DNA of 36,037 nucleotides from Gemmatimonadota bacterium (GTDB taxonomy: Bacteria > Gemmatimonadota > Gemmatimonadetes > Longimicrobiales > Gaopeijiaceae). The position numbers and the translations under genes are program-made. Below, in pieces: positions 7,423-34,215 of this stretch; the first letter of the stretch is position 1, and the number at the start of each line of letters is the position of its first letter. The notes under the pieces are model-generated. The model did no database searches. It worked only from the letters and a program-made list of their open reading frames with translations, and was not told where the DNA came from. The stretch lies in assembly GCA_028873825.1 (NCBI GenBank), contig JAPPNM010000064.1:1-36037 (forward strand). The letters are read 5' to 3'.

Positions 7423-7685
7423 CGGTGAGCGCCTTCGGTCATTCTCCGGGCCCGCGCCAGCCTCGCGGCCGCGCCCCGGGCGTTCGGCCGCAAGCGCTCT
7501 CACGCGGCTTTCGGTTGCGGTCATCGGTGCCGGTCCTTCGCGGTCGGGCAGGGTTCGCTGCGGGGCTGGCCGGACGCATAGTGTACCGCCCGCCCGCCCT
7601 TGTCAAGCGGCTGTCCCAAGGCGAAATCGGCGCTACATTGCGGGATCCGCAGCTCGCCGAGCGGCGGCCGCGGCCCGAGCCCAAG

Positions 7686-7931
7686 CAGTCCGTGGACAAA
7701 ATCCCCCCGGCATTCGAGCGGCGACGCATCCGCGCTGGCCGCTTCGCCTCCACCTGTCCACGCTGTAAAGCTTACTTTACACTATGTAATGCCTGCTATA
7801 CATATTACCACTCCGAGGCTGCGCTCTGCGTTGCTCCTCGGGCGAATAGCGCTGCTATTCTCCCTTCGTCGCGCCTTGCCAGCCCGGCGCCTCGCCGCTC
7901 TCGGTGCTCGCGGGGCTTTATCCACGGACTG
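7686..7931 (+). mobile_element. Full copy 1 of a ~246-bp MITE-like inverted-repeat element
   Basis: The element opens with CAGTCCGTGGACAAA and closes with TTTATCCACGGACTG, inverted repeats of each other apart from one base and extending inward into CCCC/GGGG. It aligns end to end with the copy at 33523-33767: the right 117 bases differ at about 8 positions, while an AT-rich core of about 60 bases is diverged. Inside are a palindrome TGTAAAG-N4-CTTTACA (7764-7781) and a hairpin GAATAGC-gct-GCTATTC (7844-7860). Flanks are CAAG and CTAA, so the target duplication is imperfect here. It occupies most of the 523-base gene-free gap 7423-7945; 7423-7685 shows nothing else. There is no transposase, so it would be non-autonomous. 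Confidence 0.85.
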
Positions 7932-7945
7932 CTAATAGACCGAGC

Positions 7946-9823: not shown

Positions 9824-9856
9824 CAGTCCGTGGATATAGCCGCCCGAGCACCGAGA
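9824..9856 (-). repeat. Solo element end before the first LRR gene
   Basis: 33 bases beginning CAGTCCGTGGATATAGCC match the reverse complement of the terminus at 1-53 at 32 of 33 positions. The match stops 3 bases before the ATG of the LRR lipoprotein gene. No partner end is visible nearby, so this is a solo terminus or a decayed copy. Confidence 0.8.
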
Positions 9857-9859
9857 CCC

Positions 9860-12610
9860 ATGGTACGCCGCAACCCGCTCCTGACCGCCCTGATCCTCGG
9901 ATTCTCCGCCGGGTGCGGAGACTCGGGCGCCCCGCCCGCGCCACCCGTGCCCACGACTCTGGAACTCTCGCCGGAGTCGCTCGGCCTCGAGGCCCTAGCC
10001 GCCACCGCGAAGTTCACGGCCGCGGTGTACGACCAGGACGGGAATGCGATGACGGGCGTGCCGGTTTCCTGGCGGTCGTCGAGTCCTTCGGTCGCCGCCG
10101 TCAACCAGGCGGGGCTCGTTACCGCCGCGGGCAACGGATCGGCCTACGTGGCGGCGACGGCGGGAGAGGCGCTGGACTCGGCCCGCGTCGTCGTGAAGCA
10201 GCGCCCGGCGTCGCTGTGGATCCGGCCGGGTCATCCCCTGCGCATGGAAGCGCTCGGGGACACCGCGAAGCTCGCCGCCGAGGTGCTCGATCCGAATGGC
10301 CGCGCGATCGTCGAAGCGGTCGCGATCTGGTCCGTCGGCGACGCGAAGGTGGCGACGGTTACCCAGGAGGGACTGGTGACCGCCGCCGCCAACGGCGGCA
10401 CGACCGTCAAGGCCGCCTTCGGCGACCTGGCGGACTTCGTCTCCGTCTCGGTGAGGCAGGTGCCGGCGGTGGTTCGGATCTCCCCCGCCGACGACACCCT
10501 GAGGTTCGAGACGCTCGGAGACACCATCCGGCTCTTCGCCGAGGTGTTCGACGCGAACGGCCACGAGGTCGAGGGCGTGCAGGTGGCGTGGGGCACCAGC
10601 GACCCGGGTGTAGCGACCATCGACCGGGACGGGCTCGTCACCGCCAGGGGAAACGGCGCTTCGACCATTTCCGCGTCCGCGCACACCGCGAACGCCTCGG
10701 CCCATGTCGAGGTGGACCAGGCGCCGACGATCATCGAGTTGCTTTCCCCAAGCGACCTGCTCGCCGTCGGCGATTCGGTCCGGATGACCGCACGGGCCTT
10801 CGATGCGGGAGGTTCTCCCATCGTGGACGCCGACTTCGCCTGGACTTCCAGCGACACCGGCGTCGCGAAGGTGAACCGGCGGGGATGGGTCCACGCCGTT
10901 GCCGAGGGGGAAGCCGAGATCACCGTGGCGCTGAAGGGCCTGAGCGCATCGGCAACGCTGGTCGTTGCCAGCCGGGACGAGATCGCGCTGCTGGCCTTCT
11001 TCCGGTCGACCAACGGCCCGATGTGGACCGCAAACGCCAACTGGGCCACCGATGCGCCGCTGGCCGAGTGGCACGGGGTCGAAGTCGACGAAGCGGCGAG
11101 GGTCGTGTCGCTGAGACTGCCCGAGAACAACCTGGCCGGAACCGTGCCGCCGGAAATCGGCATGCTCGCCGCCCTGAAACTGCTGCACCTGGAGGAAAAC
11201 CTCCTCGAAGGACGGCTCCCCGGCGAGATCGGCGAGCTTCGGAGCCTGAAATCGCTCTTGCTGTTCGACAACTCCCTGTCGGGCCCGCTTCCGCCGGAGA
11301 TCGGAAGGATGGAGCGGCTCGAGGTCCTGGATCTCGCCAGGAATGATTTCACCGGGCCGGTTCCCCCGGAAATCGGCGAGCTTCCGCACCTGTGGTTTCT
11401 GGGTCTCTTCATGAACGAGCTCACCGGATCGATACCCCCGGAAATCGGCGGCCTCAACAGTCTTCGCGTGCTTGACCTCTGCTTCAACCGGCTGACGGGG
11501 CCGATTCCGCCGGAGATCGGCCGGCTGAAGCGGCTGGAGACCCTGTCGCTATGCGGCAACGACCAGAACCCCGGAACCCGCAACCGGCTGACCGGCAGGA
11601 TGCCTCCCGAGATCGGCAACCTGACCAGTCTCAGGCGGCTCGACCTCGGCGCGAACCGGCTGACGGGACCGATCCCCCCGGAGATCGGCAAGCTGGAGAG
11701 ACTCGAGACGCTCAGGCTGTACAGCAACCTCCTGACGGAGATTCCGGAGGAGATCGGCCAACTCGAGAACCTCCGATCGCTGTTCCTCTACGGAAACCGT
11801 CTGACGGGCTCGATCCCCCCGGAAATGGGAAACCTCGTCGCCCTGGACTCGCTGCTTCTGGGGCCGGGATGGACCAGCGGAAACAACTCCCTGACCGGCA
11901 CAATCCCGCCCGAGCTGGGCGATCTGGCCGGGTTGCTCAAGCTCGACCTGGGCCACAACGACCTGTCCGGGACCATCCCGAGCGAGCTCGGGAGTCTCAC
12001 GAGGCTGGTATTCCTGCAACTCGACTACAACCGGCTCACGGGCGAGATCCCTTCGGAGCTCGGGAAACTGGCTCGCCTGGAATGGCTGGTGGCGTGTTCC
12101 AACAAGTTTTCCGGGCCGATTCCTCCGGAGCTCGGCCAGCTCCGGGCCCTGGAGCGCGTGTACCTCTGCTCAAACAAGCTGGAAAGCACATTGCCGAAGG
12201 AGATCGGCAAACTGACCGAACTGGTGCATCTGTACCTCGGCGGCAATCGCCTGAGCGGCGAATTCCCGGAGTCCATGCTATCCCTGACGCGCCTGACAGA
12301 GCTGTTCTGGCGAGTAAACCGCGGACTTTGCGCGCCGCGGACCGACGAGTTCGAGGAGTGGCTCGAGAACATCCCGAAGTCCTCCGAAATCTACTGCGAA
12401 CCCCAGGAGAGGAAGGGGCGGCGGGGGGAACCCGAAGCGGCGTTCCCGGGGATCTGCTCGGTGACCGTGGTCGCGCCCGAGTCCGCCTCCTCGAGCGGCT
12501 CGCGGACTCCCGGAGCGAACCGCGAGGGCGCGCGAAGGGGCGTCGTACCGGGCCGGGCGGTTCCGGAGCGTCCCGGGACGTGGGGCGTGTCGTGCGGGCG
12601 GGGCCGCTGA
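9860..12610 (+). CDS. Ig-like (BIG2) and plant-type leucine-rich repeat lipoprotein, paralog A
   Basis: A 916-residue lipoprotein. The signal peptide ends in lipobox GFSAGC (Cys about 19). Four bacterial Ig-like BIG2 modules fill about residues 30-375, each with a pattern like VAWxTSDPGVATIDxDGLVTARGNG. An LRR N-cap (IALLAFFRSTNGPMW) follows. About 16 leucine-rich repeats of 24 residues then run from about 420 to 815, of the plant/receptor-like consensus RLTGPIPPEIGxLxxLxxLDL. The tail past about residue 850 is low-complexity and has no sorting signal. The ATG at 9860 directly precedes the signal core. Such proteins probably bind other proteins or glycans at the surface; the ligand is unknown. 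It is followed after about 90 bases by a close paralog. Confidence 0.88.
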   Translation: MVRRNPLLTALILGFSAGCGDSGAPPAPPVPTTLELSPESLGLEALAATAKFTAAVYDQDGNAMTGVPVSWRSSSPSVAAVNQAGLVTAAGNGSAYVAATAGEALDSARVVVKQRPASLWIRPGHPLRMEALGDTAKLAAEVLDPNGRAIVEAVAIWSVGDAKVATVTQEGLVTAAANGGTTVKAAFGDLADFVSVSVRQVPAVVRISPADDTLRFETLGDTIRLFAEVFDANGHEVEGVQVAWGTSDPGVATIDRDGLVTARGNGASTISASAHTANASAHVEVDQAPTIIELLSPSDLLAVGDSVRMTARAFDAGGSPIVDADFAWTSSDTGVAKVNRRGWVHAVAEGEAEITVALKGLSASATLVVASRDEIALLAFFRSTNGPMWTANANWATDAPLAEWHGVEVDEAARVVSLRLPENNLAGTVPPEIGMLAALKLLHLEENLLEGRLPGEIGELRSLKSLLLFDNSLSGPLPPEIGRMERLEVLDLARNDFTGPVPPEIGELPHLWFLGLFMNELTGSIPPEIGGLNSLRVLDLCFNRLTGPIPPEIGRLKRLETLSLCGNDQNPGTRNRLTGRMPPEIGNLTSLRRLDLGANRLTGPIPPEIGKLERLETLRLYSNLLTEIPEEIGQLENLRSLFLYGNRLTGSIPPEMGNLVALDSLLLGPGWTSGNNSLTGTIPPELGDLAGLLKLDLGHNDLSGTIPSELGSLTRLVFLQLDYNRLTGEIPSELGKLARLEWLVACSNKFSGPIPPELGQLRALERVYLCSNKLESTLPKEIGKLTELVHLYLGGNRLSGEFPESMLSLTRLTELFWRVNRGLCAPRTDEFEEWLENIPKSSEIYCEPQERKGRRGEPEAAFPGICSVTVVAPESASSSGSRTPGANREGARRGVVPGRAVPERPGTWGVSCGRGR

Positions 12611-12626
12611 CCCGGAGGGGATGCCG

Positions 12627-12666
12627 CGCCGCTCTCGGCGCTCGGCCGGGCCTTGTCCACGGACCG
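12627..12666 (+). repeat. Diverged solo element end before the second LRR gene
   Basis: About 40 bases reading CGCCGCTCTCGG and ending in CTTGTCCACGGACCG align with the terminus at 1-53 at roughly 80 percent with one indel. It lies 30 bases before the ATG of LRR paralog B, in the same orientation relative to the gene as the copy before queG. The match is weaker than the others. Confidence 0.6.
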
Positions 12667-12696
12667 CCGGGCGAGGGTCTCGCCCGCGGGCTGCCG

Positions 12697-15183
12697 ATGG
12701 CGCGCCGCTTCGCGATTCCCGTCATCCTGCTCCCCGGGCTCCTCTCCGCCTGCGGAGACCCGGGCACGGACCCCCTCGTTCCGACGACGCTCACCGTCTC
12801 GCCCGACTCGCTGAACTTCGGGGCGCTCGCCGCCACGGACGGCCTCGCCGCCACGGTCCGCGACCAGCACGGAGGGGTGATGAAGGAGGCGGTCGTCTCG
12901 TGGCGGTCCTCCGAACCCGGGGTCGCCGCCGTCGACCAGGCCGGGCTGGTGACCGCCGCCGGAAACGGAACCGCGACCGTCCGCGCGACTTCGGGGAACC
13001 TCGCCGACTCCGTAGCGGTCACGGTGGAGCAGGTGCCGGCGGAGGTGCGGATCTCCCACGGCGACGAGCCCCTTGTATTCGAGACGCTCGGCGACACCGT
13101 CCGTCTCTCCGCCGAGGCGCTGGACGCGAACGGGCACGCCGTCGCGGGAGTCCCGCTGGCCTGGTCCGTCGACGATACGAGCGTGGCCGCCGTCGACCGG
13201 GACGGCCTGGTCACCGCGAGGGGCAACGGCACCGCCGCCGTGTCCGCGTCCGCGGAGGGGGCGACCGGATCGCGCACGGTCGAAGTGGACCAGGTGCCGG
13301 CGACCGTCGAGGTCATGTCCCCAACGGACGTGCTGGCCGTGGGCGACTCGGTCCGGATGACGGCGCGGGCCTTCGACGCGGGGGGCTCCCCGATCGAAGA
13401 CGCGGACTTCGCCTGGACTTCGAGCGACACGACCGTCGCCACCGCGAACCCGGAAGGATGGGTACGCGCCCTGGCCGAAGGGTCGGTCGAGATCACGGCG
13501 ACGCTGAATGGCCTGAGCGCATCGGTCGAGCTGGTCGCCGTGTCCCCCGACAGGATCGCGCTTCTGGCCCTCTTCGAGTCGGCCAACGGCAAGTCGTGGA
13601 ACAACAGCGACAACTGGGGGACGGACGCGCCCCTGAGCGAGTGGTACGGCGTCGAACTCGACAGCCTGGGACGGGTCCGGTCCGTGAACCTGTCCGCGAA
13701 CAACCTGGCCGGGAGCATTCCTTCCGAGATCGGCGGGCTCGTCGAGCTCATTGAGCTGCACCTGGAGGCGAACCTGCTCGAGGGGGCGCTGCCGCCCGAA
13801 ATCGGGCGGCTCGAGAACCTGCGGTGGCTCGGTCTGTCCGGGAACCGACTGACCGGCTCGCTCCCGCCCGAGACCGGGGATCTCGCGGACCTCCTAATAC
13901 TGGACCTGAGTTTCAACGAGTTCACCGGCTCGCTCCCCCCGGAAGTCGCCCGGCTGACCCGCCTGCAGTACCTGGGTCTCTTCTCCAACGGCCTGACCGG
14001 CGCGATTCCGCCGGAAATCGGCGGCCTGGAAAGCCTGAGGTTTCTGGACCTGGCCTACAACCGGCTGACGGGACCGATTCCGCCGGAAATCGGCGACATC
14101 CGGGAACTGGAGAGCCTGCTGCTCTACGGCAACGACTCGAAACCGGAGGAAGGCAACCGCCTCACCGGCGCGATCCCGCCCCAGATCGGAAACCTGGCCA
14201 ACCTGAGGTCGCTCAACCTGGGCGCAAACCGGCTCGAGGGGCCCATCCCGCCGGAGCTCGGCAAGCTGGCCGAGCTGGATTCGCTGTCGCTGTACAGCAA
14301 CCTGCTCACGAGCATCCCCCCCGAACTCGGCGAGCTGGCCGGCCTTCGGCACCTGTCGCTCTACGGCAACCGTCTCGCCGGATCGATACCCCCCGAACTC
14401 GGCGATCTGGCGAATCTGCGCGCCCTGCTGCTCGGAAGAGGATACACCAGCGGCAACAACATGCTCACAGGTTCGATCCCGAGCGAACTGGGCGAGCTCG
14501 CGCGTCTGGAAAAACTCGACCTGGGCGGAAACGACCTGACGGGTTCGATCCCGGGCGAACTGGGCAAGCTGGCCAGGCTGGAATTCCTCGAACTCGGCTC
14601 GAATCGCCTGACCGGCGGGATTCCCGCGGAGCTGGGCGGACTCACCCGCCTTACGCGCCTGGCCGCCTGTCCCAACGAGCTCTCGGGGACGATTCCCGGG
14701 GAGCTGGGGGAACTGCGGGAGCTCCGCCGCCTGTTTCTCTGCTCCAACGACCTGACCGGGAAGCTGCCCCCGGAAATGGGCGGCCTGACGAAGCTGCGGC
14801 TCCTGCGCCTCGAGGCCAACCGGCTGACCGGCCAGATCCCCGATTCCATGCTGGCGGTCAGAGACCTCCTGGAGTTCCGGTGGGAGGAAAACGACGGGCT
14901 CTGCGCCCCCGCCACCGAGGAGTTCGAAGAGTGGCTCGACGGTATTCCGTCGTCTTCGGACATCTACTGCGAGAGCGCTTCGCCGAACCCGGAGCGGACG
15001 GAGACCGGGGCGGCGGGTCCGGGCAGCTGTTCGGTGACGGCGGTCGCGGCGGCGCCCGCCGCGGGGCGCCGGTTGCGGGGCCGCGAGACCGGCGCGGGCG
15101 TCGCGCGGGGGAGGCTGCCGGGCCGCGCGGGGGCGGGAGCGGCGGGGACCTTCCGGATGGAGAGGACCGTGCGCGCCTGTTGA
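12697..15183 (+). CDS. Ig-like (BIG2) and plant-type leucine-rich repeat lipoprotein, paralog B
   Basis: An 828-residue lipoprotein closely related along its length to the preceding gene. The ATG at 12697 begins MARRFAIPVILLPGLLSAC, a signal peptide with lipobox LLSAC. It has three BIG2-like modules where paralog A has four, an LRR N-cap (IALLALFESANGKSW), and about 16 repeats of the LTGxIPPELGxLxxL type with irregular spacers at matching places (such as TSGNN). The C-terminal sequence EFEEWLDGIPSSSDIYCE matches the paralog and is followed by a low-complexity Ala/Gly/Arg tail. A much longer upstream reading frame is an antiphase shadow of paralog A. Probably made by tandem duplication followed by loss or gain of one Ig module. 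Confidence 0.88.
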   Translation: MARRFAIPVILLPGLLSACGDPGTDPLVPTTLTVSPDSLNFGALAATDGLAATVRDQHGGVMKEAVVSWRSSEPGVAAVDQAGLVTAAGNGTATVRATSGNLADSVAVTVEQVPAEVRISHGDEPLVFETLGDTVRLSAEALDANGHAVAGVPLAWSVDDTSVAAVDRDGLVTARGNGTAAVSASAEGATGSRTVEVDQVPATVEVMSPTDVLAVGDSVRMTARAFDAGGSPIEDADFAWTSSDTTVATANPEGWVRALAEGSVEITATLNGLSASVELVAVSPDRIALLALFESANGKSWNNSDNWGTDAPLSEWYGVELDSLGRVRSVNLSANNLAGSIPSEIGGLVELIELHLEANLLEGALPPEIGRLENLRWLGLSGNRLTGSLPPETGDLADLLILDLSFNEFTGSLPPEVARLTRLQYLGLFSNGLTGAIPPEIGGLESLRFLDLAYNRLTGPIPPEIGDIRELESLLLYGNDSKPEEGNRLTGAIPPQIGNLANLRSLNLGANRLEGPIPPELGKLAELDSLSLYSNLLTSIPPELGELAGLRHLSLYGNRLAGSIPPELGDLANLRALLLGRGYTSGNNMLTGSIPSELGELARLEKLDLGGNDLTGSIPGELGKLARLEFLELGSNRLTGGIPAELGGLTRLTRLAACPNELSGTIPGELGELRELRRLFLCSNDLTGKLPPEMGGLTKLRLLRLEANRLTGQIPDSMLAVRDLLEFRWEENDGLCAPATEEFEEWLDGIPSSSDIYCESASPNPERTETGAAGPGSCSVTAVAAAPAAGRRLRGRETGAGVARGRLPGRAGAGAAGTFRMERTVRAC

Positions 15184-18697: not shown

Positions 18698-21600
18698 TCA
18701 CGACCGACCCGGCTGAGCGCCTTCCCCAACCGGGATGTTGCCCCAGCGCATGAAGAGCGCCGGAACGACCACCATGTTGAGCAGCGTCGAGGTCAGCAGT
18801 CCGCCCAGAACCACGACGGCGAGCGGCGCCTGGATTTCCTTTCCGGGCTCGCCGATCCCCATTGCCAGGGGGATCAGCGCCAGTCCCGCGGTCAGGGCGG
18901 TCATCAATATCGGACTCAGCCGCTCCACCGAGCCGCGCCGGATGGCGTCCGGAAGCGACATTCCACCCGCGCACAGGTCCTGATATCGGCTCACGAGGAG
19001 CATGCCGTTTCGCACCGCGATCCCGAAGAGCGTGATGAAGCCCACGAGCGTCGCGACGTTCACCGTGCCGCCGATGAGGAGCACGGCGATCACTCCCCCG
19101 GTCAGGGCCAGCGGCAGGTTCACCATGAGGAAGGCGGCCGTGCTGAAGTTGCCGAACGCCCGGAACATGATCAGGAAGATCGCGCCGATCGAGAAGAGCG
19201 AAAGGACGGTGATGCGCCGCGTCGCGCTCTGCCCGCTCTCGAACTGTCCCCCGTACTGCAGGTGGTACTCGGGCGGCAGGTCCAGGTCGTCGGCGATGTG
19301 TCCCTGCAGCTCGGTCACGGCGCCGATCACGTCCCGCCCGGCCACGTTGGCGCTCACGACGATCTTCCGCGACACGTTCTCCCGCGTGATCATGTTCGGC
19401 CCGCGGGCCTGCACGATCGAGCCGAGCTGCGAAAGCGGCACGATCGGGCCGGCGGGGGTCGCCACCAGCGCTCCCCCGATGGCGTCGGGATCGCTCCGGT
19501 AACGGTCCGCGTAGCGCACGACCAGGTCGAAGGTCCGCTCGCCCTCGCGCACCATGGACACGACTTCGCCCTGCATGGCGATGTGGACGGCACCGGCCAG
19601 CGCCCCGGGGCTGACCCCGTGGCGTGCCATGGCCCGGCGGTTGGCGCGCACCTGCAGCTGGGGCACCTCGGCCTGCTGCTCCATCGATACGTCAACCAGG
19701 CCGTCGACCTCGTGTGCGATGGCCTCGATCTGTCCGGCGATCTCGCGCAGTTCGCGAAGATCGGGTCCGAACACGCTGATCGCGATCGCCGCCCGCGTGC
19801 CGGACAGCATGTGGTCGATGCGGTGCCCGATCGGCTGCCCCACCGTGATGCTGGTGCCCGCGATCCCCGCAAGCTCCGCGCGCACCTCGGCCATCACTTC
19901 CGCGAGCTCGCGGCCGGACAGGTCAAGCCGCGCTTCGACATGCGACACGTTGACGCCCTGCGCTTCCTCGTCCAGCGCGGCGCGGCCCGTGCGCCGTGCG
20001 GTCGAGATCACCCCCGGCACCCCCAGCAACCGCCGCTCCACGCGATTGCCGATCTCGCCGGATTCCGCCAGCGACGTGCCCGGCACGCTGATGATCGCGA
20101 TCGTCAGCGACCCCTCCTGGAACTCCGGCAGGAACTCCCGTCCCAGGACGGGCACCACGGCCAGGGTGCCCGCGAGCAGCAGCGCCGCCCCGACCAAGAC
20201 TCTCCCCGAACGCTGCAGCGCGCGGGTCAGCACCCGTTGGTAGACGAACTCGAGTCCCCGGACCAGCCAGGGCTCGCGTCGCCGCCTGATCGAGCGGTCG
20301 CCCGGCAGCAGCAGGTAGGAGAGCGCAGGTGTAACCGTTACCGCGACGACGAGCGACGACAGGATACTGATGATATAGGCGTACCCCAGCGGCTTGAGCA
20401 TGCGGCCCTCGACCCCGGTCAGGAAGAACAGGGGGACGAAGACGATGGTGATGATCAGCGTCGCGTTGAGGATCGGATCCCTGATTTCGCTCGCCGCGCC
20501 GCGAATCAGGGGCAGCGTCGCCAGGCGCTCGCCGGGTGGCCGGCGAAGGTTGTCGCGGAGTCGCCGGTGGACGTTCTCGACAAAGATGATCGCGTCGTCG
20601 ACGAGGGCTCCGATCGCGATGGCCATCCCGCCCAGCGTCATGGTGTTCACCGTGCCTCCCAGGGCACGCATGGTGATGACCGCCAGCGCCAGCGACAGGG
20701 GGATGGCCACCACGGAGATCAGCGTGGTGCGCACGTTCCACAGGAAGAGCAGCAGGATGGCGATCACGAAGAACGCGCCGTCGCGGAGCGCGATGATGAC
20801 GTTCTCGACGGCGAGCGAAATGAAATCGGCCTGGCGAAAGATGTCGCGCTCGAAGGTGATTCCCTCGGGCAGCTCGGCTTCGATCAGGTCCAGCTCGGCA
20901 TCGACCCGTTCCGTGAGTTCCAGCGTGTTGGCGCCCGCCTGTTTCTGGACCGACAGGATGACTGCCGGCTTCGCGTTCACGGATCCGGACCCGTATGTGA
21001 TCTTGGGACCGATGCGGACTTCGGCCACGTCGTCGATCAGGACCGGAACTCCTTCCCGGGTCGCCACCACGGTCACCCCGATGTCTTCCACGCTCGAGGG
21101 GCGCACGATCCCCCGGACCAAGATTTCGCGTCCACTCGACCAGTAGAGACCTCCCGCCACGTTCTCGCTCGACCCCTCGATAGCGGCGAGCACGTCTTCA
21201 AGTCCCACCTTGTAGGCCAGGAGCCGTTGCGGATCGACCAGCACCTGGTATTCGCGCACATCGCCGCCCTGCGTCACCACCTGCGATACTCCCGGCACCG
21301 CCAGCAGCCTACGCCGCACGATCCAGTCCGCCGTGGTGCGCGCTTCCATGAGCCGCGACTCGGGTGCGACAACGCCCACCAGCATGATCTCGCCCATGAT
21401 GGAGCTGATGGGCGCGAGAACCGGAGGACTCACGCCTTCCGGAAGGTCGAGCGCCTGGGCCTGGAGCCGCGCACCCACGATCTGCCTCGCGAGGTAGATG
21501 TCGGTTCCCCATTCGAAATCCGCCCAGACGACGCTGATTCCCTGCGCTGACTTGGAGCGCACCCGCCGAACCCCAAGCGCGCCGTTCAGAGCCGTCTCGA

Positions 21601-21841
21601 TCGGGAAGGTGATCGATGTCTCCACGTCTTCGGGCGCGAGCCCGTGGGCGTCCGTCACCACCGTGACCGTGGGAGCGGTCAGGTCGGGAAAGACATCGAC
21701 CGGGAAGGTGGCCGCCACCCAGCTGCCGCCCACGAAGAGCCCCATGGCGAAGATGAGCGCAAGGAAGGGATTCGCGAGGGATGTGCCCACTACGAGGTCG
21801 AGAAAACCGCGCCGCTCGCGTGCCGGGGGGGTGTTTTCCAC
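18698..21841 (-). CDS. CusA/CzcA-family RND heavy-metal efflux pump
   Basis: A 1047-residue inner-membrane RND transporter with the family's length and layout: a first membrane helix (PFLALIFAMGLFVGGSWVA), the porter start FPVDVFPDLTAPTVTVVTDA, two large periplasmic loops and a C-terminal helix cluster. The proton-relay helix reads IAIGALVDDAIIFVEN (Asp 415, Asp 416, Glu 422), closer to CusA than to the DFGxxxDG of CzcA. Of the three CusA metal methionines, one is plausible near RIDHML and another near AEVMAEV, but the first is not seen, so the metal is uncertain. The start is GTG at 21841, 10 bases after the adaptor stop. Its N-terminal MENTPPARERR overlaps a repeat-element end and has no clear Shine-Dalgarno. 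Last gene of a TolC-adaptor-pump operon. Confidence 0.9.
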   Translation of the reverse strand: MENTPPARERRGFLDLVVGTSLANPFLALIFAMGLFVGGSWVAATFPVDVFPDLTAPTVTVVTDAHGLAPEDVETSITFPIETALNGALGVRRVRSKSAQGISVVWADFEWGTDIYLARQIVGARLQAQALDLPEGVSPPVLAPISSIMGEIMLVGVVAPESRLMEARTTADWIVRRRLLAVPGVSQVVTQGGDVREYQVLVDPQRLLAYKVGLEDVLAAIEGSSENVAGGLYWSSGREILVRGIVRPSSVEDIGVTVVATREGVPVLIDDVAEVRIGPKITYGSGSVNAKPAVILSVQKQAGANTLELTERVDAELDLIEAELPEGITFERDIFRQADFISLAVENVIIALRDGAFFVIAILLLFLWNVRTTLISVVAIPLSLALAVITMRALGGTVNTMTLGGMAIAIGALVDDAIIFVENVHRRLRDNLRRPPGERLATLPLIRGAASEIRDPILNATLIITIVFVPLFFLTGVEGRMLKPLGYAYIISILSSLVVAVTVTPALSYLLLPGDRSIRRRREPWLVRGLEFVYQRVLTRALQRSGRVLVGAALLLAGTLAVVPVLGREFLPEFQEGSLTIAIISVPGTSLAESGEIGNRVERRLLGVPGVISTARRTGRAALDEEAQGVNVSHVEARLDLSGRELAEVMAEVRAELAGIAGTSITVGQPIGHRIDHMLSGTRAAIAISVFGPDLRELREIAGQIEAIAHEVDGLVDVSMEQQAEVPQLQVRANRRAMARHGVSPGALAGAVHIAMQGEVVSMVREGERTFDLVVRYADRYRSDPDAIGGALVATPAGPIVPLSQLGSIVQARGPNMITRENVSRKIVVSANVAGRDVIGAVTELQGHIADDLDLPPEYHLQYGGQFESGQSATRRITVLSLFSIGAIFLIMFRAFGNFSTAAFLMVNLPLALTGGVIAVLLIGGTVNVATLVGFITLFGIAVRNGMLLVSRYQDLCAGGMSLPDAIRRGSVERLSPILMTALTAGLALIPLAMGIGEPGKEIQAPLAVVVLGGLLTSTLLNMVVVPALFMRWGNIPVGEGAQPGRS

Positions 21842-21847
21842 GGGCTA
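21810..21847 (-). repeat. Element left end forming the RND pump start
   Basis: 38 bases align without gaps to the left terminus of the copy at 33523-33767 at about 32 positions, including CGCCGCTCG, TGCCGGGGGG and CCACGGGCT. The pump's GTG start is the GTG of the inverted repeat, and the first 11 codons (MENTPPARERR) parallel the VDKIPPAFERR frame of the full element. No matching right end was seen. Confidence 0.75.
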
Positions 21848-21851
21848 GTAG

Positions 21852-23573
21852 CTAGTGGGCGTGGTCGTGCGCCGGCGCGACGACCCCGAGCGCGGCGAGG
21901 TTGACCTGGTACGCGCCTACGGTGACGACGTGCTCACCGGAGGCGAGCCCGGACGAAACGATGGTCCAGGATCCGTCCGAAGGACCTGTTTCGACGACTC
22001 GGCGTTCGAAGGTGTCCCCGGTGAGCATGACGTAGATGACGGAGAGGTCGTTCTCGTCCTGGATCGCCGAGGCCGGAACCGCGACTCCGGGCACCCGGTC
22101 GCCGATGAGGATGTGGCCTTCTGCCAGCATTCCCACCTTGAGGGCGCCGCTGGAGTTCGGAACCCCGAAACGGACCGCGAGAGTGCGGCTCGCGGGATCG
22201 ATCATGTTACCGATGGAAAGGACCCTGCTCGAAGTGTAGGTGGTCGCGCCGCCCTCGACGGTGAACCACGCACCCCGGATCCGGTGCGCCTCCGAGGCGT
22301 AGCGGGCGGGAACCCGCGCCACGAACCAGAGTGAGGACGCGTTCACGATCGTGAACGCGTGCTCTCCAATCTCGATCTGGGCGCCCAGCGCCACATCACG
22401 CACCGCGACCACCCCGTTGATCGGGCTGCGCAGGCGGTACAGGTCGGGGTCTTCCTCGCCGACGCCATCCAGCGTGCCGCCGATCGCTTCGAATGCGGCC
22501 ACCGCCACATTGAGGTTTCGCCGCGCCTCCAGCACCCGACGTTCCGGGATGGCACCGGCGGCGAAGAGGCGTTCGGCCCGGTCGGCTTCGAGTTGGGCCT
22601 CCACGACGTCGGCCCGCGTGCGCACGTATGAATTGTCCGGGCTCGTGGGCGCGATCAGCGCCAGCGTCTGCCCGGCAGCCACCCGGTCGCCGGGTCCGAT
22701 CGAGGGGCCGTCCACCGCAACGCGCCCCGCAACGGGCGATGAAACGTGAACCAGACCTCCGGGAGGGGCCACCAATTCGCCGGGGGCCGGGATCGACGCC
22801 GGAATCTCGCGCTCCGCCGCCGCGGCGATCGCGAAGGGGAACGACCACTGCTCCTGCTTCGGAAGCATGATGATTCCCGAGGCCACCTCGTCCTCCGAGT
22901 GGCCGTGGCCCGCGTGCGGGTCCAGTTGGTCGTCCGCGTGGTCGTGCCCCGCGTGGGCATGGGCCATGTCCCCCGAGTGGTCGTGCCCCGCGTGCATGTC
23001 GGCCATGTCCCCCGAGTGGTCGTGCCCCGCGTGGGCATCCGACTCGCCGCCCGCATGGTCGTGCCCCGCGTGCGCGTGGGCCTCGTCTCCCGCGTGGCCG
23101 TGCCCCGCGTGAACATGAACGTCCCCCTCGCTCTCGAAGACCTCGAACTCGCCCGCCCCGATCACGTAGTCGCTTCCCTCCAGCGACACCGCGACCTCGG
23201 CGTGCCAGTGGCCCTCCGACGGTATCGTGGGCGACACCATGTACAAGCCCGGAGTCTCCGGCACGGCTTCGATCTCCTGGCGGCCTGCGGGAGGCCCGTA
23301 GACGATCAGCGCGACGCCGGCATCCGTCACCGGTCGCCAACCCTCCACCCGGGTGAGGTAGATCTGCCAGGGCTCCTCGCTCTCGACACCCATGATCTGG
23401 TGCGGGTATTCGACGAAGAGCTCGATGTCGCCGGACAGCCTGGTGAACACGCCTCCACCGCGGTGAGGATCGTGGGCCGCGTCGGCCCCTCCGTGGTCCG
23501 GCGTGTCCCCGCATCCCCATATGGCGATGCCCGCGACGCCCATCAGCCACGGCCCGGCCTCTCTCGTTTTCAT
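21852..23573 (-). CDS. RND efflux periplasmic adaptor (CusB-like) with His-rich repeat domain
   Basis: A 573-residue lipoprotein adaptor joining the pump to TolC. The lipobox is AIWGC (Cys about 21). Residues 40-150 form an extra beta-rich N-terminal domain. Residues 155-232 are six 13-residue units of the form HAGHDHxGDxxxx. The membrane-fusion body follows: a barrel/lipoyl half (GLVHVSSPVAGRVAVDGPSIGPGD), a helical hairpin (about 335-375), the second lipoyl half (LRSPINGVVAVRDVALGAQIEIGE) and the C-terminal barrel (VPGVAVPASAIQ). The protein ends in AHDHAH. His clusters suggest capture of periplasmic metal. The start overlaps the TolC stop (ATGA), with GGAGG 7 bases upstream, so translation is coupled. 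Confidence 0.92.
   Translation of the reverse strand: MKTREAGPWLMGVAGIAIWGCGDTPDHGGADAAHDPHRGGGVFTRLSGDIELFVEYPHQIMGVESEEPWQIYLTRVEGWRPVTDAGVALIVYGPPAGRQEIEAVPETPGLYMVSPTIPSEGHWHAEVAVSLEGSDYVIGAGEFEVFESEGDVHVHAGHGHAGDEAHAHAGHDHAGGESDAHAGHDHSGDMADMHAGHDHSGDMAHAHAGHDHADDQLDPHAGHGHSEDEVASGIIMLPKQEQWSFPFAIAAAAEREIPASIPAPGELVAPPGGLVHVSSPVAGRVAVDGPSIGPGDRVAAGQTLALIAPTSPDNSYVRTRADVVEAQLEADRAERLFAAGAIPERRVLEARRNLNVAVAAFEAIGGTLDGVGEEDPDLYRLRSPINGVVAVRDVALGAQIEIGEHAFTIVNASSLWFVARVPARYASEAHRIRGAWFTVEGGATTYTSSRVLSIGNMIDPASRTLAVRFGVPNSSGALKVGMLAEGHILIGDRVPGVAVPASAIQDENDLSVIYVMLTGDTFERRVVETGPSDGSWTIVSSGLASGEHVVTVGAYQVNLAALGVVAPAHDHAH
22878..23111 (-). repeat. Six 39-bp tandem repeats encoding HAGHDH units
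   Basis: In-frame minisatellite inside the adaptor gene. Six 39-base units each encode 13 residues starting HAGHDH or HAGHGH followed by an acidic spacer such as SGDMADM. Exact multiples of three keep the frame, so the unit number can change without loss of the protein. Confidence 0.9.
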
Positions 23574-24826
23574 CGTTTGTCCTCCGGAGCGCTTCCCGTG
23601 GCGCGAAGCAGGTCGTAGTACGAGACCCAGGCTTCGGTCGCCAGCGAAAGCGCGCTCAGCTGGGCTCCCTGAAAGGCACCCGCCGCGTCCAGGAGTTCCA
23701 GCAGGGTCATCTCGTGTTCGCCGTAGGCAGCGGTCGCCGAGGCAAGAAGCGCCTCGCCATCGTCCCGGAGACCCTGCGCCGCGGCCTCGAGCCGTGCCCG
23801 GTTGGACGCATATCCGTCCGCGGCGGCCAGCACGTCGTACCGCGCGATCTCCCTCCGAAGTTGGAGACGGTACGCGGCGGCGGCGCTGTTGGCGGCAGCC
23901 TCCTCCCTGGTCCCGACGCCCCGGTCGAAGAGCGGCAGCGGGACATCGAGCCCGATGCTGGCGCCTCCGAATCCGTCATCGTGGTGCCGGTATCCAACCC
24001 CGAGACTCGGGGCGGGCACCCAACCGGTCCGGGCCACGTCCGCACCGGCCCGGGCCGCGTCCAGCTCGCTTGCCGCCGCTTGCACGTCCGGACGGCCGTC
24101 GAGGGCGGTCATCGCGGCCGCGCGGCTCATCATGGGCGGCACTCCTTCCAACCCCGCCGACGGACCGATCTCCTTCGCTTCGGATCCCGGTTCAATGAGC
24201 ACGGCGAGATGCCTCCTCGCCGCCCGGGTGCGCAACATCGCTTCCTCCAACTCCTGTTCGGCCTCCACCCGCGCGAGTCGCAGCCGACGGGCTTCGTAGG
24301 CGGAAATGTCACCCTCCTCAAAACGGACCTCGGCATCCTCCGCCACCGATTGAATCACCGAAGCGGTTCGCCGCACGACCGACTCCGCCTCTTCCGCAAA
24401 CCATGCCCGCACATACGCCTCCCGCACCTCGAAGGCCAACTCGATCGAGTCGGCGCGCAGGCGTGCGGCCCCGGCACGGATCGTGTTCGCGGCGGAGCGG
24501 GCCCGGGCGGTGGTCCGGCCGGGCCACTCCACCTGCTGGATGACCTTGAAGGTCTCTTCCCAGGCCTTCTCGTCGTTGTGACTCAGGTCGTCCCGCTCCA
24601 ACGAGAATTCCGGATTGAAGTAGGCGCGCGACTGTCGGGCCCATCCCGTCAGCCCGGCGGCCTCGGATCTTGCGATCCTCAGCGCGAGGCTGTTCCCGGC
24701 GAACGCCTCCAGCGCCTCGGCGAGCGAGACCCGGCGCACCGTTTCCTGCCCGATGGCAGCCCTCGGCGCCAACAGTACGCCGCAGAGGACCAGAACGGGC
24801 CACGGCCGTGTTCGCGATTCTCGCAA
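23570..24826 (-). CDS. TolC-family outer-membrane efflux protein (CusC/CzcC-like)
   Basis: A 418-residue outer-membrane channel. A signal peptide (WPVLVLCGVLLAPRAAIGQ) precedes the family start RRVSLAEALEAFAGNSLALRIA. Long amphipathic helices rich in Ala, Glu and Arg follow, in two similar halves (for example VIQQVEWPGRTTARARSAA and SLGVGYRHHDDGFGGASIGL), as in TolC. The start is TTG at 24826: GGAG lies 6 bases upstream and the signal sequence begins at once. First gene of the minus-strand efflux operon; its stop overlaps the adaptor start. It forms the exit duct for the tripartite metal pump. Confidence 0.88.
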   Translation of the reverse strand: MRESRTRPWPVLVLCGVLLAPRAAIGQETVRRVSLAEALEAFAGNSLALRIARSEAAGLTGWARQSRAYFNPEFSLERDDLSHNDEKAWEETFKVIQQVEWPGRTTARARSAANTIRAGAARLRADSIELAFEVREAYVRAWFAEEAESVVRRTASVIQSVAEDAEVRFEEGDISAYEARRLRLARVEAEQELEEAMLRTRAARRHLAVLIEPGSEAKEIGPSAGLEGVPPMMSRAAAMTALDGRPDVQAAASELDAARAGADVARTGWVPAPSLGVGYRHHDDGFGGASIGLDVPLPLFDRGVGTREEAAANSAAAAYRLQLRREIARYDVLAAADGYASNRARLEAAAQGLRDDGEALLASATAAYGEHEMTLLELLDAAGAFQGAQLSALSLATEAWVSYYDLLRATGSAPEDKR

Positions 24827-31701: not shown

Positions 31702-34215
31702 TCAGAACTCGAAGTCCACGCCGATGAAGGGGAGGAACGGAATATGGGTGGGCTCCCTCCACCGGTTCTCTTCTCCGATGTTGTCCCGGTCGAAGAGATT
31801 CGCCACCGATAGGTAGGGCTCGACGGATACCCCACCCCATTGGAAGCGACGGCGCACCGACACGTCCATCCGCGCATACAGCGGAAACCTCCCCTGTTGT
31901 TTCGACCAGACATCGTACCACCCGCCCTCATACACCGCGCCGAAGCCCCCGCCCGTCCACCTTCCCGCGCTGTACACCCAACCCTTAAAACCCCCGGCCG
32001 GGAGCCAGAGCGGTGTCCCCGTCCCGACGGTCGTGCGCAGCGACAGATTCAGGCCCTCTCCCGGGCGAACACTGAGCGTCGCGTCGATCTCGTGCCTGCG
32101 GTCCCACCTCGGGTGATAGCGGTGATCCTCGGTGTCCGTCAGGTCCGCCCTGGCGTACTGGTATGAGAGCCATCCCCGGACAACTCCCAAGTGCCTTTGC
32201 ACAGAAACCTCCCAGCCGTACGCGTGGCCGTTCTCGAACTCCACCACCGAGCGGTCTCGCGCCGACGAGGGCCGCCAACTCGGTACATCGACGAGCCGAC
32301 GGGCCCAGCCAGTCACATTCCCGGTCCATTCCTCGCCCCGCCACCCTTCAATCGACGCGCTGACACCCTCGGCGACCGAGGCCGGCGCGCCCCGGTCGTG
32401 CAGAAACCACATCGGCGCCCCCGGTCCGGCATAACGATCGTCGCGCAGCACGGAGAGGAATTGGGATGCGCGGTCGAGGCTCACGCTCACGGCGAAATCG
32501 CGACCGTGGTAGCGGGCCGCGATGCGCGGTTCCACGAATCCGCCGGAAGCGCCCCGCACGACTCCGGCACGGACGCCGGGCGTAAGTCGCACCGGGCCCA
32601 GCCACCGCTCGAACTCTGCGTGAACTCGCATGTGCAGGTACTCGCCGGAGGCCTCGCCCTCCATGTAGGCCCCCTTGCCCGACCCTTGCAGCGTGAGCGG
32701 ACCGCCTTCAAGGACGAACCCGGCCCGGGCGCCGGTGCTATCGCCACGGATCGCAACGCTGCCGCGCACGCCGGTGAGCGCGATCCGATTGTTTGTTACC
32801 GGGGCGGGATTTCCGGCTCCGACGGTCGTCTTCGCGCGATATCCGCTGTGGAATGCGGTCGCGTCGACGGTCACCCCGTTGTCGCGGATCCAGGACCACG
32901 AGAGCGAGGAAGCCAGGTTCGCCCACTCCGAGTCGAGAGATGTCTCGTACCCCCACCTGAGGCGGTCATCCGAGCTGAACGCGGAGAATCGAATGCGATG
33001 GTCCTCCGCGGCAGACAGCTGAAGCCCCACATTCAGGTCATGGAACGAATACGGTGCCGAGAGCTTTGCCACATCCACCGAAGCCTGCCGGCCCGCGACG
33101 ATCCAGCTTCCGTCGCCCCAGGGAAGGGAGCCCTCGGCGGTGGCGCGGACGCCGAGAAGGCTCACGCCGCCGCTCATCCGCGCAACCACCCGTTTCCCGG
33201 CCCGCTGCCGGGCCGATATCATACCCGAGAGCGATCCCCCGTGCCGGGCGGGGAGCGAGCCCTTGTAGAACTCGACGGACTCGATGGCGTCGGAGTTGAA
33301 CGCGCCGAACAGCCCGAACATGTGGTGTGGTGCGAAGACCGGAGCGCCGTCCAGGCGCATTCCCACCTGGTCGGCGTTCCCTCCCCTCACATAGATCTCG
33401 GCTCCCAGATCGTGAGTGCCGGTCACCCCCGCAAACGACTGCAGACTTCGGAATACATCGGCTTCGGCGACCGCGGGCACGGCGACGATCTCCTCATGCG
33501 TGACCCCGACGGCGCCGACTAGCAGTCCGTGGATAAAGCCCCGCGAGCACCGAGAGCGGCAAGGCGCCGGGCTGGCAAGGCGCGACGAGGGGCCAATAGC
33601 AGCGCTATTGGACTGAGGAGCAACGCAGAGCGCAGCCTTGGAAGCGTAAAATGTATACTGGACATGACATAATGTAAAGTTGTCTTTACGTTGTCGAGGG
33701 GCGGGGCGAAGCGTCCAGGCCGGATGCATCGCCGCTCGAATGCCGGGGGGATTTTGTCCACGGGCTGCTAGGACCTCTCGATCGAAGATCAGACGATTCA
33801 GCTGCCGCGAACCGGTCTCGGCACGCTCCGCCTCAACCGTCAACACCGACAATTCGACGGGCGAGCGAGCGAGCGTCAGCTCCAGGAATTCTCCGGCATC
33901 GGGTACCACTACGATCGTGTCGAGCACCACATAGCCGAGAGGCGCTGCATGTATCCGAACCATTCCGTTGACGTTCGGACCGGTGACAAGCCCCGTCTCG
34001 TCCGTCGTCCGGTCGACACCGTGTTCCGGGAAGGAGACGGGCACCCCGGCGAGCGGCGCACCCGTCTCCCTGTCCGCGATTCTGAGCGACCAATCGGCTG
34101 CTCGAGTTTCCTGGCCGACGGCGTGACCACTGCCGGTTGCGCTAAGAAGCAGACCCAGCACAAGAACCGCCGGCGCATCTGCCAACCGGCCTCGGTGGGG
34201 GGTTCTCACAGCCAT
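31702..34215 (-). CDS. TonB-dependent receptor interrupted in frame by the repeat element
   Basis: An 837-residue outer-membrane transporter. The signal peptide ends near GHAVGQ (about residue 35). A carboxypeptidase-like beta-sandwich (about 40-130, DRETGAPLAGVPVSFPEHG) is followed by an 83-residue insertion encoded by the element (about 149-231). The plug then starts (VPAVAEADVFRSLQSFAGV, YVRGGNADQVGMRLDGAPV), followed by the barrel, which ends in an aromatic FIGVDFEF. Without the insertion the protein would be 754 residues and read EVLVGAVGVTHEE across the join. An AAGGTG lies about 10 bases before the ATG. It imports an unknown ligand using TonB energy. Whether the altered protein works is unknown. 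Confidence 0.87.
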   Translation of the reverse strand: MAVRTPHRGRLADAPAVLVLGLLLSATGSGHAVGQETRAADWSLRIADRETGAPLAGVPVSFPEHGVDRTTDETGLVTGPNVNGMVRIHAAPLGYVVLDTIVVVPDAGEFLELTLARSPVELSVLTVEAERAETGSRQLNRLIFDREVLAARGQNPPGIRAAMHPAWTLRPAPRQRKDNFTLCHVQYTFYASKAALCVAPQSNSAAIGPSSRLASPAPCRSRCSRGFIHGLLVGAVGVTHEEIVAVPAVAEADVFRSLQSFAGVTGTHDLGAEIYVRGGNADQVGMRLDGAPVFAPHHMFGLFGAFNSDAIESVEFYKGSLPARHGGSLSGMISARQRAGKRVVARMSGGVSLLGVRATAEGSLPWGDGSWIVAGRQASVDVAKLSAPYSFHDLNVGLQLSAAEDHRIRFSAFSSDDRLRWGYETSLDSEWANLASSLSWSWIRDNGVTVDATAFHSGYRAKTTVGAGNPAPVTNNRIALTGVRGSVAIRGDSTGARAGFVLEGGPLTLQGSGKGAYMEGEASGEYLHMRVHAEFERWLGPVRLTPGVRAGVVRGASGGFVEPRIAARYHGRDFAVSVSLDRASQFLSVLRDDRYAGPGAPMWFLHDRGAPASVAEGVSASIEGWRGEEWTGNVTGWARRLVDVPSWRPSSARDRSVVEFENGHAYGWEVSVQRHLGVVRGWLSYQYARADLTDTEDHRYHPRWDRRHEIDATLSVRPGEGLNLSLRTTVGTGTPLWLPAGGFKGWVYSAGRWTGGGFGAVYEGGWYDVWSKQQGRFPLYARMDVSVRRRFQWGGVSVEPYLSVANLFDRDNIGEENRWREPTHIPFLPFIGVDFEF
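33523..33767 (-). mobile_element. Full copy 2 of the inverted-repeat element, inside the TonB receptor gene
   Basis: A 245-base copy in the opposite direction to copy 1. The ends read CAGTCCGTGGATAAA and TTTTGTCCACGGGCTG on the plus strand. CTAG stands at both flanks (33519-33522 and 33768-33771), a 4-base target duplication; it could equally be read as a TA duplication with ends two bases longer. Element plus duplication is 249 bases, exactly 83 codons, without a stop in the receptor frame. Internal features match copy 1: palindrome GTAAAG-N4-CTTTAC (33674-33689) and hairpin CCAATAGC-agc-GCTATTGG (33593-33611). Confidence 0.88.

Follow-up and report, generated by a model that had tools for sequence, protein, structure and literature searches.

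When repeated sequences are fused to genes, they usually appear as 3′ extensions or in poorly conserved open reading frames (ORFs). In enterobacteria, the RU-1, RU-2 and RU-3 repeats are small, non-autonomous and mobile, and are found fused in frame with ORFs, including an N-terminal fusion in the acetyltransferase YP_0349 (Delihas 2007, PMC2759123). Rickettsia palindromic elements are short repeats that are read in frame inside host proteins, and are reviewed together with MITEs (PMC10969869). The ends of GTAG REP elements overlap the TAG stops of flanking ORFs and some of these repeats lie at ORF N-termini (PMC3733652). The Coxiella elements QMITE1 and QMITE2 are MITEs that overlap ORFs, with a C-terminal extension of EnhC as one outcome and an IS1111 copy inserted in a MITE as another (PMC5896051). 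In the portion of the literature covered, there is no description of a terminal repeat that, by insertion at a stop codon, comes to provide conserved genes with their start codon.

Here we describe a heavy-metal efflux pump gene from a Gemmatimonadota bacterium for which this appears to have happened. The window, which is the whole stretch of DNA analyzed, is 36,037 nucleotides long (contig JAPPNM010000064.1). We assign a probability of about 0.84 to the following reading, which is built from sequence comparison: insertion of a MITE-like element at the stop codon of the upstream adaptor gene, followed by a microhomology deletion, would have given the pump its GTG and its first eight codons.

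The pump gene and the element end at its start

The features that are needed for the argument are these:

18698–21841, minus strand: CusA/CzcA-family heavy-metal RND efflux pump, 1047 aa, GTG start (TIGR00914, ACR_tran)
21852–23573, minus strand: RND periplasmic adaptor (membrane fusion protein), the gene upstream of the pump (TIGR01730, 133.6 bits, cutoff 94.9)
23570–24826, minus strand: outer membrane efflux protein (OEP), the third component (PF02321, E=8.8e-28)
21810–21847, minus strand: solo copy of the left terminus (CAGCCCGTGGACAAAATCCCCCCGGCATTCGAGCGGCG type) of the MITE-like element, joined to the pump gene, from the element match and the orthologue comparison
21839–21841, minus strand: likely GTG start codon of the pump, from the element terminus; the only start before TM1 except GTG18
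7681–7934, plus strand: full copy of the element with ends CAGTCCGTGGACAAA...TTTATCCACGGACTG, used as the query copy for comparisons
33520–33772, minus strand: full element copy bearing CTAG at either end, 86% identical to 7681–7934

The pump belongs to its family by a TIGR00914 score of 761.8 bits over residues 14–1029, which exceeds the curated cutoff of 701.45, and it matches ACR_tran with E=6.5e-254. The adaptor gene ends in a TAG that is 10 nt before the pump GTG, and an in-frame TAG is found two codons upstream of that GTG. The adaptor gene also contains 39-bp tandem repeats (window positions 22851–23150), corresponding to units of ~13 aa. A scan of the window against Rfam gave no matches.

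The initial annotation had claimed that 21810–21847 matches the full element at 32 of 38 bases without gaps, that the pump ORF starts at a GTG within this match and that its MENTPPARERR parallels VDKIPPAFERR in the element. These claims were borne out. In a scan of the complete window without gaps, the segment matches 33730–33767 at 32/38 and the minus-strand copy at 7686 at 31/38, while the next best position scores only 24. The GTG (21841–21839) lies inside the match and is the probable start, and the pump frame reads VENTPPARERR. The 8 bp at the end of the match (21810–21817, GAGCGGCG), which encode ERR, are common to the native sequence of element-free orthologues.

The leader is free of stops and has basic residues at its end, as would suit a cytoplasmic N-terminus ahead of a membrane helix. 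The next start candidates are GTG18, which lies in a conserved pre-helix stretch, and ATG33, which is inside the first membrane helix, so that the GTG of the element is the likeliest start and a good start downstream of the match, which would have undone the original proposal, is not present. An unlikely alternative is that the terminus is merely an upstream relic and that translation begins at GTG18, leaving the leader untranslated. GTG18 is present in this pump and in several orthologues, start-site annotation is unreliable in GC-rich genomes, and a REP survey concluded that many REPs placed at ORF N-termini are really extragenic (PMC3733652). Against this, codon 18 falls within the FLDLxVGxSLxNPFLAL stretch that is conserved among orthologues, it is GTC in L005 and L007, and the alignment to CusA starts at query residue 12, upstream of it.

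Orthologous N-termini and the history of the junction

Four species have an element-type leader: L001, which is the pump of the window (VENTPPARERRG), L002 (VDNIPPAPERRG), L003 (VEQIPQAFERRG) and L043 (VEKIPPAFERRG). Their leader DNA matches the element at 27, 29, 29 and 30 of 32 bases, respectively, with no indels and no stops, and the GTG is kept in 4/4. In the MAG of L043, which has the best element match, the pump is interrupted between residues 121 and 157.

It is very improbable that this likeness arose by chance or convergence, with a native leader drifting toward the sequence of the element end. The last 8 bp, GAGCGGCG, do coincide with the element while being native. When they are left out, the 24 bases preceding the ERR codons still match at 22/24 in L043, 21/24 in both L002 and L003 and 19/24 in L001, versus 16 for the best non-element 24-mer in the window and 3–7/24 for element-free relatives over the same bases. 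Furthermore, these genomes carry the element in abundance. By these comparisons, the leader DNA is of element origin and is absent in the nearest orthologues.

The nearest element-free orthologues, the sister pair L004 and L005, have pumps that are 95% identical. These start shortly after the adaptor stop at a native ATG and read MNQPEQRG (ATG AAT CAA CCT GAG CAG CGC GGT) and MNQLERRG (ATG AAC CAA CTT GAG CGG CGC GGT), so element-free orthologues do not share the N-terminus of the carriers; had they shared it, the original proposal would have been refuted. In relatives at a greater distance the reading is MNExxRRG, and those further away still begin at approximately the equivalent of residue 13. 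The initial claim that CusA relatives need no such leader has to be corrected for the close relatives, which have a short native leader; it follows that the element replaced a leader and a start codon and was not added to a leaderless gene. Similarly, the claim that an element end became the start codon and N-terminus is supported for the GTG and only ~8 codons, as ERR is native.

As GAGCGGCG is native in the orthologues, the join between element and gene falls within an 8-bp microhomology. The preferred history, of which the deletion is inferred from the junction sequence, is as follows. The MITE-like element would have inserted at or next to the adaptor stop, before the pump gene, in the ancestor of a few species of the genus. 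A deletion across the shared octamer may then have joined the first ~38 bp of the element to the pump gene, with loss of the remaining element sequence and of the native ATG, so that the GTG of the element was left as the start. The pump would now start at a GTG located 6 nt inside the terminus, with eight codons of element DNA and native sequence from ERRG onwards. For the pump itself, insertion at the adaptor stop is deduced, while the insertion step is directly visible at two other loci, as explained below.

This single-step history is complicated by short element-like stretches directly behind the adaptor stop in other species: CAGTCCGTGGA in L006, CTAG|CAGTCTGCGGAC in L008 and CTAG|CTGTTCGTGGAC in L009. 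These relics point to insertion there too, and suggest that it may predate the four carriers. A variant, which we regard as possible but doubtful, is that an ancient insertion at the adaptor stop was present in most of the genus and was followed by lineage-specific deletions, with only the four carriers keeping a usable GTG. Consistent with this variant, the best tree puts the element-free L004 and L005 inside the carriers, so that a loss or two gains are possible. The support for that placement is only 65, and the tree test does not reject the four carriers as monophyletic (p-AU 0.33). At 7–14 bp, the relics in L006, L008 and L009 may also stem from independent insertions at this CTAG stop. 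Two other junctions show that a single stop codon is commonly hit more than once in this genus, which argues against the variant.

The MITE-like element and its insertion sites

The element exists in two size forms, of about 254 bp and ~175 bp. It has terminal inverted repeats (CAGCCCGTGGACAAA ... TTTATCCACGGACTG), and the loci fetched from the genus give a consensus left end of CAGCCCGTGGACAAAATCCCCCCGGCATTCGAGCGGCGATGCATCC (185 copies) and TTTATCCACGGACTG at the other end. Its only stop-free frame, VDKIPPAFERRCIR..., is without a transposase, and it produces a 4-bp NTAR target duplication: the flanks of many copies are mostly CTAG, CTAA or CTGG, and a CTAG duplication is also obtained by comparing a filled site in G019 with the element-free site in G016 at secY-adk. 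These features, together with a high copy number and dispersal, are those of a MITE.

The left end is present in 113 copies in the 3.3-Mb MAG that contains the window, and in 61, 33 and 20 copies in the relatives G021, G018 and G001, respectively, the last counted with a shorter pattern; reversed-pattern controls gave 0. The element is found in 23/23 genomes of the genus, which we take, from record names such as RHO, to be sponge-type Gemmatimonadota. Positions 1–54 of the window are part of another copy (right end), 96% identical to 7879–7932.

IS5-type insertion sequences use YTAR/CTAG targets with a 4-bp target duplication. The likeness of the element to the IS5 family is confined to the target motif, and no transposase with these ends was seen in the fetched loci. 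There, no autonomous partner or transposase was recognized between pairs of ends 0.4–3.5 kb apart, so that "MITE-like" is the strongest label that can be claimed. In G021, IS110/IS1111-like transposase genes occur at the same point in the right end of the element (ALST|MEW...) at L218, L222 and L254. The IS110-like transposases beside the element at these loci were considered as cognate and rejected, as they lie inside the right end and look like secondary insertions.

Copies of the element also touch other coding sequences. Three loci in G021 (L245, L261 and L262) hold head-to-tail arrays with a period of ~172–174 bp that read as long repetitive frames, and such arrays are likely sources of spurious annotated proteins. 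In the window, two paralogous LRR/Big-domain lipoprotein-like genes start a few tens of bases past a right terminus (9824–9860 and 12623–12697). A frame from the terminus GTG at 9830 enters the first of these (VDIAARAPRPMVRRNPLL), which has its native ATG at 9860.

The position of the element relative to upstream genes was evaluated using 181 distinct left ends for which the upstream sequence was long enough. In 79 of these a stop trinucleotide abuts the terminus (TAG|CAGCCCGTG...), comprising 64 TAG, 11 TAA and 4 TGA, whereas other offsets from the terminus gave 0–12. Of the 79 stops, 54 end an open frame that is 80 codons or longer, and 36 end a frame that is coding-like, judged by GC3 pattern. 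For 1,900 NTAR tetranucleotides elsewhere, which are mostly in intragenic DNA, the figures were 26% and 3.2% (45% and 12% for CTAG). Because the control is mostly intragenic and selection removes gene-breaking insertions, the bias describes the positions of surviving copies and not necessarily targeting.

The resulting geometry is TAG CAG CCC GTG, with a start codon 6 nt behind the stop. The preference of the element for NTAR targets often places it on TAG or TAA stops, which is probably why the arrangement works. A terminating ribosome could then re-initiate at the GTG of the element directly behind the stop.

Other genes and comparison with known systems

Further cases were sought among the fetched left ends and their flanks. 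Two replaced starts were found, both in G001, a single-contig, complete genome. The first is adk, encoding adenylate kinase, which lies behind a secY-like gene (L373:1483) and reads TAC GTC TAG CCC GTG GAT ACA ATC CCC CCG GCA GGC CGG GTC ATC ATT CTC CTT GGT TCG, so that the leader is followed by GRVIILLGSPG. No other ATG, GTG or TTG occurs before the Walker A motif, and the GTG of the element must therefore be the start there, which also argues against the reading of such termini as untranslated relics. In G019, GTCTAG and CTAG flank a full ~175-bp element at this junction, and the corresponding site of G016 is element-free (GTGTAGCGGTCTTCACCACATGAG). From these sequences, this is an insertion exactly on the stop codon with CTAG duplicated.

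The second case is a sigma-54-type response regulator (L392:1504), named from its receiver motif and length. It begins GTG GAC AGA ACC CCC CCG GCA TCG CGC, while its relatives start GTG GCA TCG CGC, and in G004 a full element is directly behind the same upstream TTTTAG stop. From these alignments, at least two other core genes appear to have changed their start in the same way, as a result of the element frequently inserting precisely at the stop of the preceding gene. We lean slightly toward the broader reading that a stop-seeking MITE is a recurrent supplier of start codons in this one genus, its GTG, suited to re-initiation, and its stop-free leader replacing native starts through microhomology deletion, including those of adk and regulators.

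Other candidates were set aside. A lipoprotein-like gene in G021 (L233) is a possible further case, but the N-termini of its orthologues varied. Left ends at pdxJ (L191), VapC (L306), adk (L276) and at L182 give long open frames but have an obvious native ATG downstream. L176, L240, L261 and L262 were discarded as long frames running through full elements, and L184, L247, L260 and L302 as antisense-looking frames. In the genome of the window, an amidohydrolase-like gene (L173:1484–1560, contig C53 near 30893) has ~40 bp of element end in frame in its signal peptide, absent from orthologues. It was not counted as a start replacement as this stretch sits behind a native Shine-Dalgarno sequence (AGGAGG) and ATG.

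Thus, defined operon junctions are found in full-element, remnant, element-free and fused states, and conserved proteins, of which one is essential, would have switched to a start codon from a mobile element. This offers a concrete route for the evolution of N-termini and start sites and would account for the unusual leaders with GTG that these genomes contain. Termination-reinitiation behind a transposon end thereby becomes testable. A further consequence is that disagreement among orthologues at the N-terminus in such genomes can be real biology and not annotation error.

How does this compare with the systems described at the outset? Rickettsia palindromic elements are inserts of ~150 bp that lie whole within ORFs (PMC10969869), whereas here a terminus of only ~25–38 bp is left, at the first codon. 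REPs are 20–40 bp hairpins linked to RAYT (PMC3733652); in contrast, the element here has longer inverted ends and a 4-bp duplication, and provides a start codon for the next gene. The IS1111 in Coxiella QMITE2 parallels the IS110/IS1111-like genes in the right end of the element, but the Coxiella MITEs extend the 3′ end of genes, and the available part of that paper does not describe start-codon replacement (PMC5896051). RU fusions are mostly poorly conserved or C-terminal (PMC2759123), whereas here a terminal inverted repeat would give the start codon to conserved core genes, and, beyond the RU cases, element-free orthologues and full-element and empty-site states are found. That small repeats can be joined in frame to genes is already known from these systems.
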